From Gluconobacter sphaericus NBRC 12467 (GTDB lineage Bacteria; Pseudomonadota; Alphaproteobacteria; Acetobacterales; Acetobacteraceae), in NCBI RefSeq assembly GCF_006539125.1, contig NZ_BJMK01000012.1:1-51647 (forward strand): a DNA stretch of 51,647 bases, in the 5' to 3' direction. This document shows, piece by piece, positions 2,888-40,757 of the stretch. Numbering within the stretch: the first letter of the stretch is position 1; every line of letters begins with the position of its first letter. The position numbers and the translations under genes are program-made. The notes beneath the pieces are model-generated. The model searched no databases and was not told the origin of the DNA. It saw nothing but the letters and a program-made list of their open reading frames with translations.

Positions 2888-3535
2888 ATGTCCCACCCGC
2901 CCGACCGTCCTGAAATTCTGGACTCCGACCATCTTTCCACCCGTACCCGCGAGATCCTGACATCGCGGCTTTCGGTCTCCACCGCACAGCCGCGCACCCT
3001 GTCGCTCCGGGCCTATGCCGCCCTCGACGCGCTGCTGCCCGTCCTGCTCCCGCTGGACGAAATCCTACCTCCCGCCACCGACATTGCCATGACAGCCCGG
3101 ATCGACGCCGCGCTCTCCGGCCCGCGTGACGGCTGGCGTTTCGCGGACCTCCCGCCCGATGCCGAAGCCTGGGAATCCGCTCTCCTGACCCTCGACGACG
3201 TCGCGGCCGAACAGCACGGACTCGCCTTCATCCACCTGGCCCCGGACCTGCGCGGCGCCCTGCTCGACGCCGTCATGGAGGGTCAGATTGGTCTCGAGCG
3301 CGAAGGCCGGCTTACGGCATCCCAGATGAAACGCTGGTCCGGAGACCTGCGTGGCGAGGTCGTAGACTGCATCATGAGTGACCCGCGCATCCAACAGGCA
3401 CTCGGCATTTCCTCCAGCCTCACCGGCGGCGACACGGTCTTTCAGGGCTTTACAAAGGTCGGCTCCGACAGCCGCGAAGACTTCGAACCCAAAGCCACCG
3501 CCCCCCTTCTCCAGATGGCAGAATCCAGCGAATGA
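2888..3535 (+). CDS. Gluconate 2-dehydrogenase subunit 3-like small subunit
   Basis: A 215-residue protein whose composition and partner gene place it with the small (gamma, subunit 3) chaperone-like subunits of FAD-dependent gluconate/sorbitol/glucose dehydrogenases. The known family members help fold or export the large GMC subunit, and many carry a Tat signal. None is visible here: the N-terminus ([16 protein letters not shown]) is polar and has no twin arginine. The start is supported by a strong AGGAGG eight bases upstream. Its stop overlaps the ATG of the large-subunit gene by 4 bp, so the two are translationally coupled. The lack of a signal suggests a cytoplasmic complex, unlike the classic periplasmic three-subunit enzymes. 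Confidence 0.7.
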
Positions 3536-5079
3536 GCAGCAGCACCCTCATGAAAACATTCGCCAAAACGGACATCGTCGATACCCTCATCATCGGCAGC
3601 GGTGCCGGTGGCGCGCCCCTGGCCGCAGAACTCGCCCGCAACGGCAAAACCGTCGTCGTGCTCGAAGCCGGCCCCGCCTTCCCCGCCACGGGACACACGC
3701 CTGACGAAATAGCCGCCCGCGAACTATACTGGCTGCACGAACGCCTCTCCGCAGGCACAAACCCGCAGGCTTTCGGCGGCAACAACAGCGGCACCGGCCT
3801 TGGCGGCTCCCTGCTTCATTACGGCGCCTTCATGCCGCGCATGGACGCCCGCGACTTCCACCTGCACACCGAAACCGGCAAGGGCGTGGACTGGCCCTTC
3901 GGCCTGGACGAACTGCTCCCCTATATCGAGCGCGTAGAATCCTTTATCGGCGTCTCCGGCCCCGCCCATTATCCGTGGGACCCAGAGCGTCGCTACGCCT
4001 ACGCGCCCCCGCCGGCCAACTCCGCCGCGCTGAAAATGCGTGAAGGCTGTGACGCGCTCGGCCTGCGCCACGCAGACGGCCCCGCCGCCCTCATCACCCG
4101 CGATATCGAACAGCCACATTTCGGCACCCGCCATGCCTGCGCCAACTGTGGGGCCTGCCATCAGGGCTGCCGCAATGGCGCCAAATCGGGCACGGACAAC
4201 ACATGGCTCCCCATGGCCGTCGCCTATGGCGCGGAACTCCGCCCGGGCTGCTTCGCCCATACGATCGAACGCGACAGTTCAGGCCGCGTGACCGGCGTGG
4301 TCTATCGCCAGAACGGCGTCGAACACCGTCAGAAATGCGCGACCCTCGTCCTCGCCGCCGGTGCCGTCGAAACCCCGCGCCTGCTCTTGACCAATGGTCT
4401 TGCCAACAGCTCCGGTCAGGTCGGCCAGAACTACATGACCCATGTCTCCACCCAGGTCTGGGGCGAGTTCGACGAAGACATCCGCCCCAATCGCGGCTAC
4501 CCGTCCCTGACCATCACCGAAGACATGATGCGCCCAAAGGATGCGGATTTCGTCGGCGGCTACCTCGTGCAATCGCTAGGCATGATGCCCGCAACCTGGG
4601 GCCAGAACCTCGCCCGCAGCACCACGACACGCGGTCCGGCCTTCGCCCGCGCGCTCGCCGGATATAACCGCTCAGCAGGCATGGGCATCAACGGCGAATG
4701 TCTGCCCCGCCCCGAAAACCGCGTGACGCTTTCGGACGAGAAGGACGCCTTCGGCATCCCCAAGCCCCTGATCGAACATTCCTATGGTCCCAATGAATGG
4801 GCCATGCATCATCACGCCGCGCGCCTGATGACACAGATGTGGGAAACCGTCGGTGCAAAGGACATCCGCGTCATCGACCGCGCTGCCCACATGATCGGCA
4901 CCTGTCGCATGGGCGCCGATGCCGGAAGCAATGTCGTCAATCCGGTCGGCCGTAGTTTCGATATCGACAATCTGTGGGTCTCCGACCACTCAATCTTCCC
5001 CAGCGCCGCCGCCGCCAACCCGGCTCTGGCCATCATGGCCCTCTCCCTCCGCACAGCAGAAGCCATGCTGAGGACCTGA
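3532..5079 (+). CDS. GMC-family FAD dehydrogenase large subunit
   Basis: FAD-dependent glucose-methanol-choline oxidoreductase of 515 aa, likely to oxidise a sugar, sugar acid or polyol; the substrate is unknown. Residues about 20-45 form the FAD dinucleotide fold (IIGSGAGGAPLAAELA ... VVVLEAG). A cysteine cluster near residues 202-215 (CANCGACHQGCRNGAK) resembles the 3Fe-4S ligand set of FAD-glucose and gluconate dehydrogenase large subunits. The C-terminal GMC domain has HMIGTCRMG and NLWVSDHSIFPSAAAANP, the active-site and FAD-binding signature. The gene follows the subunit-3-like gene with an ATGA overlap. No multi-heme cytochrome c gene follows; the next gene is rho. An electron acceptor must therefore be supplied from elsewhere. 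Confidence 0.88.
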   Translation: MSSSTLMKTFAKTDIVDTLIIGSGAGGAPLAAELARNGKTVVVLEAGPAFPATGHTPDEIAARELYWLHERLSAGTNPQAFGGNNSGTGLGGSLLHYGAFMPRMDARDFHLHTETGKGVDWPFGLDELLPYIERVESFIGVSGPAHYPWDPERRYAYAPPPANSAALKMREGCDALGLRHADGPAALITRDIEQPHFGTRHACANCGACHQGCRNGAKSGTDNTWLPMAVAYGAELRPGCFAHTIERDSSGRVTGVVYRQNGVEHRQKCATLVLAAGAVETPRLLLTNGLANSSGQVGQNYMTHVSTQVWGEFDEDIRPNRGYPSLTITEDMMRPKDADFVGGYLVQSLGMMPATWGQNLARSTTTRGPAFARALAGYNRSAGMGINGECLPRPENRVTLSDEKDAFGIPKPLIEHSYGPNEWAMHHHAARLMTQMWETVGAKDIRVIDRAAHMIGTCRMGADAGSNVVNPVGRSFDIDNLWVSDHSIFPSAAAANPALAIMALSLRTAEAMLRT

Positions 5080-11515: not shown

Positions 11516-12829
11516 ATGACGCGCTCATCCCTTCCGGACGTCCCTGACAATACGCCACAGGTCATTTTTGCCCTAGCCACAGGTCCCTCCCGTGCTGCCA
11601 TCGCGATCATTCGCGCCAGCGGTCCAGGCTGTGATACGATCCTGAAGACGCTCTGTAACGGACGCTTGCCCGAACCACGGCGCGCCAGCCTGCGCACCCT
11701 GCGCAAGAGCGAAGACGTGCTCGATCATGCCGTCGCCCTCTGGCTCCCCGGCCCCAACTCCTACACCGGGGAAGACGGCTTCGAGCTGCACCTCCATGCT
11801 GGCCCCGCCATCATCGCCCGCGTAGCCGACGCCCTCACCGATCTAGGAGCCCGCCCCGCCGAACCCGGCGAATTCACACGCCGCGCCGTGCAGAAAGGAA
11901 GACTGGATCTCCTTCAGGCCGAAGCCATTGCCGACCTCGTGGACGCTGAAACCGAAAGCCAGCGCAAACAGGCCCTCCGCCAGGCCGACGGCGCCCTGAG
12001 CCGCCTGTATGATGACTGGGCACAGCGCCTGCGTCTCGTCCTTGCCCATCAGGAAGCCCTGATTGACTTCCCGGACGAAGACCTTCCGCAGGACGTGGAA
12101 GACGGACTGGTCGAGGAACTCTCGAAACTCCAGACCGAAATGTCCGCCCATCTTCAGGACAATCGCGGCGAACTCATGCGCCAGGGCCTGACCGTGGTGA
12201 TCGCAGGCTCGCCCAATGTCGGAAAATCCAGCCTTCTCAATACGTTATCCGGAACCGACTCTGCTATCGTCACTCATCGCGCAGGCACCACACGGGACGC
12301 CATAGCAATAGACTGGACTCTGGACGGCGTCCGCCTGCGTCTGATCGACACGGCAGGCCTGCGCGAGACGGAAGACGAAATCGAGGCCGAAGGCATCCGC
12401 CGCGCGCTGTTTCACGTGAAACAGGCGGACGTGCTTCTCCACCTGATCGGCCCGGATGAAAGCCTCGACACCCTTTCCGGACAGGAAATTCGCATCCGGA
12501 CGAAAATCGACATCGCACCAGCCCCGCCCGGCATGTTAGGGATCAGCACGCAGTCCGGCGAAGGACTTGATGCGCTGCGTCAGGTCCTGTCCGAACGGGT
12601 GTCCGAACTCATGGCCGGTTCAACCGCGCCTCCGCTGACCCGCGCCAGACACCGCGCCGGAATCCAGGAGGCCGCAACCCATCTGGATCAGGCCCGGACC
12701 GCGACATGGCCGGAACTGCGGGGCGAAGAACTCCGGCTGTCCATGCTGGCTCTGGGGCGTCTGACCGGACGTGTTGATGTTGAATCCCTGCTCGATGCGA
12801 TTTTCGGGCAGTTCTGTATCGGGAAGTAG
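11516..12829 (+). CDS. mnmE: tRNA uridine-34 modification GTPase MnmE
   Basis: GTPase that with MnmG modifies the wobble uridine (cmnm5/nm5U34) of tRNAs reading NNA/NNG codons. 437 aa: N-terminal tetrahydrofolate-binding domain ([49 protein letters not shown]), helical domain, then a G domain with P-loop [12 protein letters not shown] near 231, DTAGLRE, and the conserved C-terminal FCIGK whose Cys is required. The segment encoding FHVKQ in the G domain carries a perfect parS palindrome. It precedes mnmG by 3 bp, so the two are coupled. Confidence 0.96.
12408..12423. other. parS: parS centromere site (perfect), inside mnmE
   Basis: TGTTTCACGTGAAACA, a perfect 16-bp palindrome identical to the broad bacterial parS consensus bound by ParB. 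It lies in the coding sequence of mnmE and about 3.7 kb from parB. Confidence 0.9.
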
Positions 12830-12832
12830 GTT

Positions 12833-14689
12833 GTGAGCGATTTCGACGTCATCGTGATCGGCGGCGGTCATGCCGGATGTGAAGCTGCAGCGGCATCGGC
12901 CCGTTTCGGCGCGCGCACCCTACTGCTCACCCATCGGCTTGAAACGATCGGCGCCATGTCCTGCAACCCAGCCATCGGCGGGATCGGCAAGGGCCATCTC
13001 GTGCGCGAAATCGACGCGCTCGACGGCCTGATGGGTAAAGCCGCAGACCGCGCAGGCATCCATTTCAAACTGCTCAACCGCTCCAAGGGCCCGGCCGTTC
13101 ATGGCCCCCGCGCCCAGGCTGACCGCTCCCTCTACCGCGCCGCCATTCAGGATCTGCTCGCCGCCACACCCAATCTGACGACCATCGAAGGCGCCGCCGG
13201 AGACCTGATCGAAGAGAACGGCCACATCACAGGCGTCATCTGCGAAGATGGCCGCACGTTTCGTTGCGGTGCCGTCGTGCTGACCGCCGGAACCTTCCTG
13301 CGCGGCGTCATCCATGTCGGCCACACCCAGACGGAAGCCGGACGCATCGGCGAGGCTCCAGCCAAACGTCTGGGCGAACGGCTTTATGCGCTTGGCCTCC
13401 AAATGGGCCGCCTCAAGACCGGCACGCCCCCCCGTCTGGCCAAAGACAGCATCGACTGGGAAAACCTCCCGGCCGACCCCGGCGATGCCGAGCCTGAAGC
13501 CTTCAGCCCCATGACGACGGCCATCACTAATCCGCAGGTCGTCTGCCGCATTACCCAGACCACCGCCGCGACCCACAGGATCATCAACGAAAACCTGCAC
13601 CGCTCGGCCATGTATGGCGGCGCCATCGCCGGTCGTGGCCCGCGCTACTGCCCGTCCATCGAAGACAAGGTCGTCCGTTTCGCCGACCGCAGTTCGCATC
13701 AGGTCTTTCTCGAACCCGAAGCCCTGCCCGGAAATCCGGGCGGCGATCTGGTCTATCCCAACGGTATCAGCACCAGCCTGCCTGCCGACGTGCAGGCCGC
13801 CATGATCACGACCATGCCCGGTCTGGAAAACGCCCGCATCGTCACCGCAGGCTATGCTGTCGAATATGATTACGTGGACCCTCGCGAACTTCTGCCGTCC
13901 CTGCAACTGCGTCGCCTGCCGGGCCTATATCTGGCCGGACAGATCAATGGCACAACCGGCTATGAAGAAGCAGGCGCACAGGGCCTCCTCGCAGGACTGA
14001 ACGCCGCCCGCGCCACGGCTGGCAACGAGGCCCTCACGCTGGATCGCAGCGACGCCTATCTCGGCGTCATGATCGACGACCTGACACTGCACGGCATCAG
14101 CGAACCCTATCGCATGTTCACGTCCCGCGCCGAGTATCGTCTCACCTTACGCGCCGATAACGCCGACCTGCGCCTGACACCCAAAGGCATCGCCGCAGGC
14201 TGCGTCTTGCCCGAACGCGAAGCCGCTTTCACCACCCAGAAAGCCGAACTCGACGCCGCCATGGCCCGCGCCGCCGAAACAACCTTCCTGCCGCAGGCCC
14301 TCCGCGACGTCGGTTTCGAAGTCTCTCTGGATGGCCGCCGGCGCACGGTTCTGGATGTCCTCGCCAGCAACGGCGACCACACGATCCTGAACACGCTGGC
14401 CCCGTGGTTCGGCGAACTTCCCCTGCGCGTCCGCCGCCATGTCGAGACCGAGGCCCGCTATGGCGGCTATCTTCACCGGCAGGATCGTGAAATTCGACAG
14501 CTCGCATCGGAAAGTGCCATCGCCCTTCCGGCCGATCTGGATTACACTGCCATCGGCGGCCTGAGCAGCGAAATGCGCGAGCGTTTTTCCCAGGCCCGCC
14601 CGACCAGTTTCGCCGCAGCACAGCGCGTGCGCGGGGTCACACCTGCCGCGCTGGTCGCCCTGCTGGCCCATGTAAGGACCCTGTCATGA
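12833..14689 (+). CDS. mnmG: tRNA uridine-34 modification FAD enzyme MnmG (GidA)
   Basis: FAD-dependent partner of MnmE in wobble-uridine carboxymethylaminomethylation. 618 aa, typical. FAD-binding fold at the N-terminus ([20 protein letters not shown]), GidA signatures [23 protein letters not shown] and LKTGTPPRL, and [24 protein letters not shown] in the middle; C-terminal helical domain binds MnmE and tRNA. GTG start three bases after mnmE; its TGA overlaps the ATG of rsmG. The gene order mnmE-mnmG-rsmG-parA-parB is the standard near-origin block. Confidence 0.97.
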
Positions 14690-15267
14690 CCACCGTTTCA
14701 CGTGAAACACACGAAAGGCTGGAGCGCTTCGCCGACCTGCTCGTGCAGTGGAACGCGAAAATCAATCTCGTCAGCCCGCGGGACATCGCCCAGCTCTGGC
14801 CCCGCCATATCGAGGACAGCCTCCAGCTTGCCGAACTGATCCCCGAAGGTGCCACCATCACTGATCTGGGTTCGGGCGGCGGTTTTCCGGCCATCATTCT
14901 GGCCATCGCCACAGGCAACCCGGTCACCCTGATCGAATCGGACCAGCGCAAATGTGCCTTCCTGCGGGAAGCCGGACGCATCTGCGACGCGAAGGTCACG
15001 GTCATCGCCAAACGTATCGAAGCCGCCAGCCCCCCTCCGGCCGACATCATCACGGCCCGGGCGCTGGCCCCCCTCAACAGGCTCCTGGACTGGGCACGGC
15101 CATTGCTGAAAGAAGACGGGTTCTGCCTGTTTCTGAAAGGTCAGAAGGCGCAGGCCGAGTTGACCGAGGCAAGCACCGACTGGCACATGAGCCACACCAT
15201 TGTTCCCAGCCGCACCGACCCCGGCGGAGCCATCATCAAGGTCAGTGATTTCAAGCGTGTCGTCTAA
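14686..15267 (+). CDS. rsmG: 16S rRNA (guanine-527-N7)-methyltransferase RsmG (GidB)
   Basis: AdoMet-dependent methyltransferase that makes m7G527 in 16S rRNA. 193 aa. The SAM motif [17 protein letters not shown] is clear near residue 64-80, and [17 protein letters not shown] matches family positions. The start overlaps mnmG by 4 bp (ATGA). The first codons (VSRET) are formed by a parS-like palindrome, a feature also seen in rsmG of other bacteria. The parA start lies within or just before its end. Confidence 0.95.
14694..14709. other. parS: parS-like site at the start of rsmG
   Basis: CGTTTCACGTGAAACA, matching the 16-bp parS consensus at all but the first base. It sits 9 bp into rsmG and 2.3 kb from the perfect site in mnmE. 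Confidence 0.85.
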
Positions 15268-16060
15268 AACCGAATCCCCCACCACCCGGATCATTGCCGT
15301 CACCAACCAGAAGGGAGGCGTCGGCAAGACCACCACCACCATCAATCTGGCCGCCGGTCTGGCCCGTCAGGGGCAGCGCGTCCTGCTCGTGGATCTGGAC
15401 CCACAGGGCAACGCCTCCACCGGACTTGGCATCGACTACGACCAGCGCAACACCGGCACCTATGCCGCGCTGATGGTCGAAGCCGAACCCCACGCTCTGC
15501 CTCAACAGACCGCGTTCGAGAATCTCTCAATCATCACGGCCAACAACGAACTGGCCGGCGCAGAGCTTGAAATGATCGGGGACGAGCGCCGCGAATACCG
15601 TCTGCGCGACGCCCTTCATGCGCTGCAAGGCGATTACGACACGATCCTGATCGACTGTCCGCCCAGCCTCGGTCTGCTAACGCTCAACGCATTGGTCGCG
15701 TCCGACAGCGTCATCGTGCCGCTGCAATGCGAGTTCTTTGCGCTCGAAGGCATCAGCCAGCTCGTCCGCACCATCGACCGCGTCCGCCGCGCCTTCAATG
15801 CAGACCTGCATCTCGAAGGCATCATCCTGACGATGTACGACCGGCGCAACAACCTGTCCGAACTCGTGGCGCAGGATGCGCGCGGCTTTTTTGGCGATCA
15901 GGTGTTCGAGACGATCATTCCGCGCAACATCCGCATTTCCGAAGCCCAGAGCCATGGCTCTCCGGTGCTGGATTACGACGCCCGCTCCACAGGCGCCATC
16001 GCCTATCTGGCGCTGGCGGACGAACTGATCAAACGCAACAAGAACAAAACAAAGGCGTAA
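15245..16060 (+). CDS. parA: Chromosome partitioning ATPase ParA
   Basis: Deviant Walker A ATPase that segregates replicated origins with ParB bound at parS. The P-loop TNQKGGVGKTTTTINLA is near the N-terminus, followed by VLLVDLDPQGNAS and TILIDCPPSLGLLTLNAL. About 271 aa, normal for chromosomal ParA (Soj). The start is uncertain: no ATG is available before the P-loop, and GTG codons at 15245 and 15257 are candidates; 15245 is closer to an AAGG at 15238, but 15257 gives a cleaner N-terminus. It overlaps the rsmG end and is followed 6 bp later by parB. Confidence 0.93.
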   Translation: MISSVSSKTESPTTRIIAVTNQKGGVGKTTTTINLAAGLARQGQRVLLVDLDPQGNASTGLGIDYDQRNTGTYAALMVEAEPHALPQQTAFENLSIITANNELAGAELEMIGDERREYRLRDALHALQGDYDTILIDCPPSLGLLTLNALVASDSVIVPLQCEFFALEGISQLVRTIDRVRRAFNADLHLEGIILTMYDRRNNLSELVAQDARGFFGDQVFETIIPRNIRISEAQSHGSPVLDYDARSTGAIAYLALADELIKRNKNKTKA

Positions 16061-16066
16061 CCGGCG

Positions 16067-16942
16067 ATGGCCAAAAAGGACAGTTCCCCGCGTCTTGGTC
16101 GCGGCCTCGCAGCCCTTCTGGGCGATCAGGCGCCGCAACTGGCCCGCGCCACGCGCGCAAACGCCCAGCCGCAGCAGCATTCGTCCCTGCCCGTGGATGT
16201 TCTGGCCCCAAGCCCCTTCCAGCCGCGACAGGACATGAACCCCGAACGCCTGTCCGAACTGGCCGATTCCATCCGCTCACGCGGCGTCCTGCAACCCCTG
16301 CTCGTCCGCCCCGATCCGGAAAAGCTAGGTCATTACCAGATCATCGCTGGTGAGCGCCGCTGGCGCGCCTCACAGCTTGCAGGCCTGCACAGTGTCCCCG
16401 TCCATATCCGCGAACTGGATGACACGGACGCGATGGCCGCAGCCCTGGTCGAGAACCTCCAGCGCGCGGATCTCAACCCGATCGAAGAAGCCGAAGGCCT
16501 GCAACGCCTCGTCACGGACTATACTCTGACGCAGGAAGAATTGGCCGGTGCCGTCGGCAAGTCCCGCCCGCACATCACCAACACCATGCGCCTGCTGAAC
16601 CTGCCGCCGGAAGTCCGGGCCTACGTCCGCAGCGGCACCCTCACGGCCGGTCACGCCCGCGCGCTGCTGACGCACCCCGATCCGGTCGCCGCAGCCAAAA
16701 TCGTCATAGCCCGTGGCCTCAACGTGCGTCAGACGGAAGCCCTTTCTGGCGGCAAAGACATCCAGACACCGGCTAAAAAGGCACGGGATGCGGAAATCCT
16801 TCAGATCGAAAACGACCTGTCCTCCCGCCTCGGACTGAAGGTCCATATTTCCTATAATGGAAAAAAAGGTGGCTCCCTGAAGATCGATTATACGTCCCTT
16901 GAGCAGTTCGAGAGCGTGATGCGCCTCCTCAACCGCAGATAA
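16067..16942 (+). CDS. parB: Chromosome partitioning protein ParB
   Basis: CTP-dependent DNA clamp that loads at parS and spreads. 291 aa. N-terminal basic peptide RLGRGLAALLG is the ParA-activating element; the ParB/Spo0J core follows with SPFQPRQDM, the CTP-binding GERRWRA motif and ALVENLQRADLNPIEEA; then the helix-turn-helix (TQEELAGAVGKSRPHITNTMRLL) and a C-terminal dimerisation domain. Last gene of the mnmE-parB operon. Confidence 0.96.
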   Translation: MAKKDSSPRLGRGLAALLGDQAPQLARATRANAQPQQHSSLPVDVLAPSPFQPRQDMNPERLSELADSIRSRGVLQPLLVRPDPEKLGHYQIIAGERRWRASQLAGLHSVPVHIRELDDTDAMAAALVENLQRADLNPIEEAEGLQRLVTDYTLTQEELAGAVGKSRPHITNTMRLLNLPPEVRAYVRSGTLTAGHARALLTHPDPVAAAKIVIARGLNVRQTEALSGGKDIQTPAKKARDAEILQIENDLSSRLGLKVHISYNGKKGGSLKIDYTSLEQFESVMRLLNRR

Positions 16943-38730: not shown

Positions 38731-39342
38731 TTAGACCACAAGGACCTTCAGTTCCCGCAGTTCCTCCAGCAGCGGCAACAGCGGTAGTCCCATCACCGCA
38801 TCCTGCGTGCCTTCAACAGCCGAAAAAAGCTGTATCCCCGGGCCTTCAAGCCGATACGCCCCTACACAAGACAGGATCGCCAAGCCTTCCCTCTCCAGAT
38901 AGACCTTCAGAAAATCCTCAGAGAAATTCCGCATCGTCAACCGCGGCGACGCCAGATGCTCCCAGATTTTCTCGCCCCCCTTATAGAGAACGACAGCCGT
39001 GCGTAGGACATGCGTCTGCCCCCGCAGACGACGCAGATGCTCCGCCGCTTCTACCACAGACCCGGGCTTGGCAAACGCCACTCCATCCAGATCAAGGATC
39101 TGGTCAGCCGCAACCGTGAGCTCATCAAAGCCCATATCCCGTGTCGCAAGGTTCGCTTTTGCATCCGCCAAGGCAATCGCCGTTTGAGAAAGCGTATGCC
39201 CCTGCTCTTCACAGGACTGCCGCAGCGTCTCCTCGTCGAGGTCGACCGGTCTGGTCTGTACGACCAAGCCCGCATTTTCAAGCAGCGTGCGCCGGGCTGA
39301 AGAGCCACTGGCAAGAATGAGGGAAGTACTGAAAGAGGTCAT
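38731..39342 (-). CDS. maf: Maf-family nucleoside triphosphate pyrophosphatase
   Basis: 203 aa. LILASGSSARRTLLENAGL is the Maf phosphate-binding start, with DLDE, KANLA and TVAADQILDLDG (catalytic acidic region). Maf proteins hydrolyse non-canonical or modified NTPs. It diverges from hemE across the probable replication origin; maf and hemE flank oriC in several alphaproteobacteria. Confidence 0.93.
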   Translation of the reverse strand: MTSFSTSLILASGSSARRTLLENAGLVVQTRPVDLDEETLRQSCEEQGHTLSQTAIALADAKANLATRDMGFDELTVAADQILDLDGVAFAKPGSVVEAAEHLRRLRGQTHVLRTAVVLYKGGEKIWEHLASPRLTMRNFSEDFLKVYLEREGLAILSCVGAYRLEGPGIQLFSAVEGTQDAVMGLPLLPLLEELRELKVLVV

Positions 39343-39695
39343 GAAGTACGACTCCGTACTATCGACTGTTGGAATGGGGACGAGTACTGCGGATCACTCG
39401 GTGAAGAGATTGCGTCAGTACTGGGGTACATGGGGATAGTACCTGCCCTTACGAAAGGAGTACCGAGTACCGTGGATTATACGATACACCAGCCGGAACT
39501 GGGGGTTGTACACAGCCTCTCTGTGGGCAATTCGGGATTGAATCCGCGACTCCCATGCAAACTGCGGCCTCCAGAGTTGTACACAGTGTGAACAAGATGG
39601 GGTACATTTTCAGAAAGCCGGGTACCCCAGTATCCACAGGGTTCATCTTAACCTCCAGCATTTCTTTCTTTTTTCTTTTATGATTAGTGGGCGGC
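39320..39695. other. oriC: Probable chromosomal replication origin (oriC) with GTAC array
   Basis: A 353-bp gene-free interval between divergent maf and hemE. DnaA-box-like 9-mers: TTGTACACA at 39506 and 39577, GTATCCACA at 39630 and, on the minus strand, TTGTTCACA at 39587-39595. The last three are close together and precede a pyrimidine/AT-rich tract (39659-39685) that could be the unwinding element. Three GANTC sites (39350, 39540, 39548) suit CcrM-type methylation. GTAC occurs 13 times between 39326 and 39625, about ten times chance. By eye the plus strand is C-rich to the left and more G-rich just to the right. In Caulobacter and Rickettsia the origin lies next to hemE. Confidence 0.75.
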
Positions 39696-40757
39696 ATGAT
39701 TTCGGAAAACGCACCTTCCTCACTCTCATCAAAACCGCTTCTGCGGGCTCTCCGTGGTGAAGCTGTCTGGCCACCTCCGGTCTGGCTCATGCGTCAGGCA
39801 GGCCGCTATCTCCCCGAATTTCGCGCCATGCGTGACCGCGCCGATTTTCTGACCCGATGCATGACCCCGGACATGGCCACCGAGCTGACGATCCAGCCGA
39901 TCCGTCGCTACGGCATGGACGGCGCCATCCTTTTTTCCGACATTCTGATCTTGCCTTGGGCCATGGGTCAGTCCCTTGAATTTATTGACGGTCGGGGTCC
40001 CGTTCTTGGCGCCATCCGCTCCGAAGCCGACCTCGCCCGGCTCGATCCAAAACGCGTACAGGACGCCGTCGCACCAGTGCGCGAGACCTTGTCCCGCCTC
40101 GCCAAAGAGCTTCCCGACGTTACCACGCTTCTGGGCTTCGCAGGCAGCCCGTTCACGGTCGCCTGCTACATGGTTGAGGGCGGTGGATCGCGGGATTTTG
40201 CCGAAACCCGCCGCATGATGCAGACCAACCCAGGCCTGTTTGATCGCCTGATCGACACCCTGACCTCGAGTACCGCCGAGATGCTCTGTGGCCAGATCGA
40301 AGCAGGCGCAGAAGCCGTGATGCTGTTCGATTCCTGGGCAGGGATTCTGCCGCCCTCCGCCTTCCGTCGCTACGTGATCGAGCCGACACGCCAGATTGTC
40401 GAGTACATCCGCACCCGTCATCCCAAGACTCCGATCATCGGTTTCCCGCGCCTTGGCGGTATCATGGTCCGGGAATATGCGCAGAAAACCGGCATTAACA
40501 CGCTGGCGCTCGACACGGTCGCCGATCCGGCACAGATCTCCGAACTGCTGGCCAAAGCCGTCCCCGGCCTGACGCTTCAGGGCAATATGGATCCAATGAT
40601 CCTGTTCTCTGGCGGTGAGAAAATGATCCGTGAAGCCCAGGCTATCCGGGACGCGATGCGCGGAAAACCTCATGTTTTCAACCTCGGACATGGTGTCATG
40701 CAGCACACGCCGCCCGAAAATGTTGCAGCCCTCGTTGAGGCGGTACGCTCCGTATGA
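39696..40757 (+). CDS. hemE: Uroporphyrinogen decarboxylase
   Basis: Heme pathway: four decarboxylations of uroporphyrinogen III to coproporphyrinogen III. 353 aa. PPVWLMRQAGRYLPEFRAMR near the N-terminus is the family signature with the active-site Arg residues; also FSDILILPWAMGQ and GFAGSPFTVACYMVEG. ATG at 39696 preferred over GTG at 39687. It leads hemE-HAD-hemJ; heme supply matches the many c-type cytochromes of this organism. Confidence 0.97.
   Translation: MISENAPSSLSSKPLLRALRGEAVWPPPVWLMRQAGRYLPEFRAMRDRADFLTRCMTPDMATELTIQPIRRYGMDGAILFSDILILPWAMGQSLEFIDGRGPVLGAIRSEADLARLDPKRVQDAVAPVRETLSRLAKELPDVTTLLGFAGSPFTVACYMVEGGGSRDFAETRRMMQTNPGLFDRLIDTLTSSTAEMLCGQIEAGAEAVMLFDSWAGILPPSAFRRYVIEPTRQIVEYIRTRHPKTPIIGFPRLGGIMVREYAQKTGINTLALDTVADPAQISELLAKAVPGLTLQGNMDPMILFSGGEKMIREAQAIRDAMRGKPHVFNLGHGVMQHTPPENVAALVEAVRSV

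Follow-up and report, generated by a model that had tools for sequence, protein, structure and literature searches.

A conserved GTAC array upstream of hemE in acetic acid bacteria: a candidate replication origin that co-occurs with a solitary DNA methylase

The window analyzed here is the whole 51,647-bp stretch G000:C12:1-51647, taken from a 3.06-Mb genome in 97 contigs (G000); in a scan of public genomes, the closest named relatives of its hemE gene belonged to Gluconobacter. The locus of interest is bounded on the left by an open reading frame for a Maf-like protein (maf, 38731-39342, minus strand; Pfam Maf, 5.8e-38) and on the right by the uroporphyrinogen decarboxylase gene hemE (39687-40757, plus strand; Pfam URO-D, 4.2e-119), which starts at either ATG 39696 or GTG 39687. 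By direct count, 13 copies of the tetranucleotide GTAC form an array at 39326-39625, to which no strand is assigned, with individual sites at 39326, 39346, 39356, 39384, 39418, 39426, 39439, 39460, 39467, 39508, 39579, 39602, and 39622. A preliminary description of this DNA had proposed a likely oriC in a gene-free interval carrying such an array. The maf-hemE gap does hold the array, but its first GTAC lies within the first codons of maf, because the maf frame starts at 39342. The three AGTACT words that had been listed among the GTACs were found at 39325, 39383, and 39417.

The reported density of 13 GTAC sites in ~300 bp was borne out statistically. Dinucleotide-preserving shuffles of the interval gave a mean of 2.0 and a maximum of 8 GTACs, and none of the 5000 local shuffles reached 13. 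The rest of the window contains 0.37 GTAC per 300 bp (Poisson P(>=13) of ~3e-16), the second-densest 300 bp anywhere in it has 4, and the whole-window total is not enriched (76 observed vs 68 expected). Triplets of close GTACs occur at 19 places in the genome, 8 of which make up the array. The other GTAC-rich place in this genome (L124:2765-3067) lies on a 6.2-kb contig, G000:C61, inside a predicted open reading frame with repeated GTGTAC/TGTTCA words; it was considered as a second array and judged by eye to be unrelated. An Rfam search of the window returned two tRNAs only, with no match at the array.

Several further elements named in the preliminary description were recovered. The near-palindrome TTGTACACAGTGTGAACAA is present at 39577, and three GANTC sites lie at 39350, 39540, and 39548. 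Both TGGGGA words exist, at 39375 and 39431, the first having been misplaced by one position (39374). The tract said to be AT-rich (39641-39695, no strand) is indeed 62% AT and is better described as mostly pyrimidine; it lies ahead of hemE, a T-rich tract in this place also occurs in the 22 aligned relatives, and it may serve as the unwinding region. The CtrA site motif of Caulobacter-type oriC is TTAA-N7-TTAA, and no such site was present in the interval even with up to one mismatch allowed. The neighborhood that had been cited in support of an origin was also confirmed. The mnmE-gidA-rsmG-parA-parB cluster was identified from its genes at 11516-16942 (plus strand), 22-28 kb from the array, and is accompanied by two parS-like 14-mers at 12409 and 14695.

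The array overlaps a conserved core, 231 bp long in this genome (39415-39645, plus strand), in which DnaA-box-like 9-mers are interspersed with GTAC sites. The box TTGTACACA at 39506-39514 (plus strand) has a GTAC inside and is identical in 29 of the 29 aligned cores. A second TTGTACACA box, again with an internal GTAC (39577-39585, plus strand), is less conserved than the first and is faced by the DnaA-box-like sequence TTGTTCACA on the minus strand (39587-39595). The DnaA-like box closest to the AT-rich side is GTATCCACA (39630-39638, plus strand), the CACA of which is invariant in the 29-row alignment. The proposed clustering of DnaA boxes therefore stands on conservation and not on number, because canonical TTATCCACA boxes with up to one mismatch are at chance level in the window (5 found vs 5.7 expected, one of them within the array). 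With a loose DnaA-box pattern applied to the 100- to 200-kb region of a related genome of the Gluconobacter oxydans clade, G007, the densest cluster (3 boxes in 400 bp) coincided with the array.

We assessed the conservation of the array at 80 hemE loci that were kept from a scan of public genomes, out of 386 encoding a relative, by reading 425 bp upstream of hemE in each. GTAC clustering was conserved across much of the Acetobacteraceae: 10-15 copies were counted in 66 of the 80 loci, 6-7 in 2, and 0-2 in 12. Seven other 4-bp palindromes did not exceed 5 copies each in the same regions, and GATC was present 0-5 times. The shuffles and this conservation together refute a compositional accident, which we regard as practically impossible. 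In all 68 hemE-adjacent relatives with the array, the core, counted from the GGGGTACATG block through the CCACAG box, is 230, 231, or 232 bp long. The spacers between its blocks are poorly conserved despite this constant length, and the blocks that are invariant in the 29 aligned cores include TTGTACACA, GGGGTAC, and GGGTACCCC. Rigid length combined with free spacer sequence suggests a nucleoprotein assembly. Across 208 GTAC sites drawn from 16 genomes, no flanking position exceeds 0.22 bits and the flanks share no common sequence; being nearly uninformative, they indicate that the selected word is GTAC itself. The earlier suggestion that the GTACs might be a variant DnaA-box family thus fits the two TTGTACACA sites but not the GTAC sites overall.

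The 12 of the 80 relatives without an array at hemE (Bombella, Parasaccharibacter, and Saccharibacter types) each carry one full core elsewhere, ~19-32 kb from hemE. At the three moved-core loci examined, all of Bombella type, the core is placed between homologues of GMC oxidoreductase and gluconate-dehydrogenase subunit genes, and the gluconate 2-dehydrogenase subunit-3 and GMC oxidoreductase genes of the window adjoin each other at 2888-5079 (plus strand). The unit that moved is essentially the 230-bp core; in the Bombella-type copy displayed, the pyrimidine tract was left behind. GC skew followed the core. In the Bombella-type genome G046, with its core at 55,913-56,136, skew turns from negative in the 52.5-55.0 kb bin to positive in the next one (55.0-57.5 kb) and stays so from there on, with positive values on both sides of hemE at 77 kb. 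At all four further moved cores, skew was -0.05 to -0.08 on the left flank and +0.07 to +0.09 on the right. In all, GC skew flips sign at the moved core in 5 of the 5 genomes of this kind checked; in them, replication almost certainly starts at the core. One Saccharibacter locus (L030:2839-2942) retains a decayed relic of the core at hemE (20.8 bits, one GTAC nearby) and has a full core ~20 kb off, an apparent case of duplication, move, and decay.

Among the genomes that keep the core beside hemE, the skew sign change coincides with it in G011, G005, G013, and G006 at a resolution of 1-2.5 kb. Adjacency to hemE, the conserved core of fixed length, and skew flips at the core in several relatives, moved cores included, support the identification of the interval as oriC. 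At ~3 kb on each side, the 68 hemE-adjacent arrays comprised 35 with a minus-to-plus change, 19 minus/minus, 14 plus/plus, and none reversed; 13 of the 19 minus/minus arrays belong to the Gluconobacter oxydans clade. This is the clade of the window, and negative skew flanks the array to its left and right at 13 of the clade's hemE loci (L002-L012, L018, and L035) and in the window. In G007, skew changes at 140-157 kb vs the array at 117.8 kb (G007:C3:117761-157000); in G015, it is near zero to 440 kb and changes at ~465 kb, with the array at 487 kb (G015:C2:465000-487500). In the oxydans clade, the change thus falls 22-40 kb (about 22 kb in G015) to the hemE side, in gene-colinear DNA. The preliminary description had named a skew minimum far from the interval as a finding against its proposal; the skew does flip at the core in several relatives, but the displacement in the oxydans clade is in part the very finding that it had named. 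This unexplained displacement is the main counter-evidence to the origin reading. A simple inversion was rejected as its cause, because gene order from hemE agrees with G011 to 132 kb and with G013 to ~152 kb, insertions apart. In Gluconacetobacter diazotrophicus (G062), GC skew is too weak for placing an origin.

The displaced skew change in G007 and G015, the negative skew throughout the window, and the lack of a simple change at the 3-kb scale at 33 of the 68 hemE-adjacent arrays would all be accommodated if the array were a cis-regulatory or chromosome-organising element near the origin, the true origin of the oxydans clade being 22-40 kb to the hemE side. Against this, skew follows the moved core in the Bombella types and changes at the core in the four hemE-adjacent genomes named above, the array is fully kept in the oxydans clade, and the 100- to 200-kb region of G007 contains no other GTAC or DnaA-box cluster that could mark a second origin. 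Moreover, no replication genes were found at 140-160 kb in G007 among the 10 open reading frames scanned of the 28 listed. We therefore hold this explanation to be quite unlikely. The displacement might otherwise be the trace of a past origin move, with the core having since returned to the maf-hemE gap. Core moves have occurred, and Saccharibacter (G055/G175, L030) keeps its decayed hemE relic besides a full core; however, no relic was seen at the skew change of G007, and the core would have had to recombine back into its former place. This scenario appears very improbable.

The preliminary description had also offered GTAC as a target of base modification, and this has become the best-supported reading of the array, through the co-occurrence of a methylase, its RsaI-paired homologues, and their identity in the middle third. 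Each of the 16 genus-level genomes (G000-G015) encodes two full PF01555 methylases. One of them, here termed MTase2 (P0001), is a solitary beta-class DNA methylase of 272 aa encoded outside the window (G000:C1:390284-391099; PF01555), with mltA on one side and the gene for a cytochrome c peroxidase on the other. No endonuclease gene was found beside it in G000, the Pfam matches of the scanned neighbors being Tim44, MltA, cytochrome c peroxidase, and others. The other PF01555 protein of G000 is CcrM-like, matching the NCBIfam CcrM model over its full length with 627 bits, under the 830-bit cut-off; it is the product of a separate gene and is 20-34% identical to MTase2, depending on the segment. 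In the PDB, MTase2 is related to other N6/N4 methylases, CcrM among them.

Phage homologues of MTase2 were found in 11 records. In Synechococcus phage ACG-2014j, the homologue overlaps a gene annotated as R.RsaI endonuclease, 'RsaI' being the depositors' label; the labelled protein has no matching model in Pfam or NCBIfam. All 8 further loci examined that carry the endonuclease gene (seven viral contigs and Cyanophage Syn2) have an MTase2-like gene directly behind it or overlapping with it; 6 of these loci are 93-99% identical to ACG-2014j and 2 are divergent (35-40%), with two of the methylases cut at a contig end. In ACG-2014f and two Paracoccus plasmids, the methylase is present with no RsaI-labelled endonuclease beside it. 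RsaI cuts GTAC, and the target of beta-class methylases is read by their middle third. Compared with five homologues, three of them RsaI-paired, MTase2 is 48-58% identical in the middle third vs 32-40% in the first third; the CcrM-like protein of the same genome has 21% identity to it in the middle third. The RsaI-paired homologues and the identity peak in the putative target-recognising middle third lend indirect support to GTAC specificity, and MTase2 thus likely reads GTAC. A second MTase2-like gene was noticed in G096 (L344:6346-7479, on G096:C1), with 57% identity, an extra C-terminal part, and apparent integrase and transposase genes nearby, as judged by eye. Neither this extra copy nor the two Paracoccus homologues had an annotated or obvious cognate endonuclease beside them, and a mobile element may in the case of G096 imitate the host origin methylase.

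We then compared the distribution of the array, detected by a profile (R1), with that of MTase2 (E <= 1e-40) in the 150 genomes that the listing for the order contains for the Acetobacteraceae. The array was detected in 99 genomes and MTase2 in 96; both were present in 96 and neither in 51. The remaining 3 (G090, G153, and G173) have a 20- to 25-bit trace of the array and no MTase2, and their origins keep DnaA-like boxes with just 1, 2, and 1 GTAC in 421-467 bp. The profile was built solely from MTase2-positive arrays, and with filters off it finds weak homology in many MTase2-less genomes, so its failure there partly reflects divergence. Direct GTAC counts are a fairer test of array absence. 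They gave 0-2 GTAC per 425 bp upstream of hemE in the 40 MTase2-less genomes read, out of 53 with a hemE match and with the above three included, and 4-11 GTAC in 10 divergent MTase2-positive origins. MTase2 was also present in all 31 genomes reached via public contigs, including all 12 with a moved array, and in 3 of 289 genomes drawn across the class, all three being Acetobacteraceae. One genus, presumably Granulibacter-like (G080, G099, and G100; L341-L343), combines the most diverged MTase2 (58%) with just 4-6 GTAC in a weakly matching origin; we regard it as an intermediate state.

The co-occurrence of array and MTase2 is partly a matter of shared inheritance. Mapping the MTase2 label onto a 40-row HemE tree takes 4 changes, and well-supported branches force 3 of these. 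The MTase2-less genomes G074 and G203 group among the positives and have 0 and 1 GTAC, respectively, with no array in either, their placement being less sure because of long branches. Weak 17-bit homology to the core is present in G074. This genome also carries an unusually dense group of 14 exact TTATCCACA boxes in ~270 bp before hemE (L397:3576-3844; G074:C1, ~948.6 kb).

These distributions bear on a further explanation, in which the core is oriC, GTAC is part of the site for some origin-binding protein, and MTase2 is merely co-inherited. Some GTACs are indeed embedded in longer stretches of conserved sequence (GGGGTACATGGGGA, GTACCGAGTACCG, and GGGTACCCC), and the GTAC in GGGTACC persists in three MTase2-less origins, as such a protein would have it. 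The absence of a common flank among the 208 sites, the agreement of array and MTase2 across 147 of the 150 genomes, given three or more changes on the HemE tree, and the RsaI-paired MTase2 homologues speak against it, and we judge it unlikely. The reading that we favor, to which we assign a probability of about two in three (0.68), is that the maf-hemE interval is the oriC of acetic acid bacteria and that its GTACs are methylated by MTase2 and gate re-initiation.

Under this joint reading, the ~230-bp core would provide a fixed geometry of alternating DnaA-like boxes and GTAC sites, and the GTACs would be the substrate of MTase2. Passage of the replication fork would leave the 13 sites hemimethylated together, and this state might be read by a putative SeqA-like protein or by DnaA directly at the two TTGTACACA boxes. 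The hemimethylated origin would then delay or license re-initiation until MTase2 remethylated the GTACs. In vivo methylation of GTAC, its effect on initiation, and any such reader are here postulated. A bolder version, possible but doubtful, would have a GTAC clock of the origin running beside CcrM, with methylation within TTGTACACA switching DnaA binding and the core acting as a self-contained, movable unit that re-polarises the chromosome. The family offers natural controls in the MTase2-less genomes without GTACs and in the moved-core genomes with skew following, and its members are both cultivable and harmless, so that methylation, initiation, and origin relocation are directly testable.

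An origin linked to hemE is known from the Alphaproteobacteria Caulobacter and Rickettsia, and the site described here likewise lies upstream of hemE. It differs from these origins in having maf as its left neighbor, in its GTAC array, and in lacking a CtrA-type site. CcrM is the established cell-cycle methylase of Alphaproteobacteria; MTase2 shares its Pfam family, and the interval contains three of its GANTC sites, but the CcrM-like protein of this organism is encoded by a gene of its own. The RsaI restriction-modification system has a parallel in the pairing of some MTase2 homologues with an R.RsaI-labelled gene in cyanophages, whereas MTase2 in G000 has no neighboring endonuclease gene. 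The closest parallel in timing is the Dam/GATC-oriC(-SeqA) system, the methylation-timed origin of Gammaproteobacteria including E. coli. Common to both are a dense palindromic 4-bp motif containing adenine, a compact core, and a presence that tracks a solitary methylase. Here, however, the motif is GTAC, two copies of it lie inside DnaA-like boxes, and the methylase belongs to PF01555 and not to the Dam (D12) family, in coexistence with a CcrM-like gene.

Clusters of orphan-methylase motifs at origins have been described for GATC, TTAA (Arthrobacter), CTCGAG (Nocardiaceae), and a haloarchaeal motif (Blow 2016, PMC4752239). As in those cases, a non-coding motif cluster at a putative origin correlates with an orphan methylase across genomes; the Acetobacteraceae array shows both orthologous non-coding placement and correlation with a solitary methylase. 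The present case differs in that the core also relocates and skew follows, and the terms GTAC, Acetobacter, and Gluconobacter occur 0 times in its main text (PMC4752239). Among the open-access literature matches listed, no title dealt with GTAC methylation in acetic acid bacteria. The general pattern is thus known, and what sets the present case apart is the methylase class, the motif, the coexistence with CcrM, the GTACs in DnaA-like boxes, and the relocating core. If the joint reading is true, Alphaproteobacteria would possess an independently evolved methylation-marked origin that uses another methylase class and another motif than Dam/GATC.
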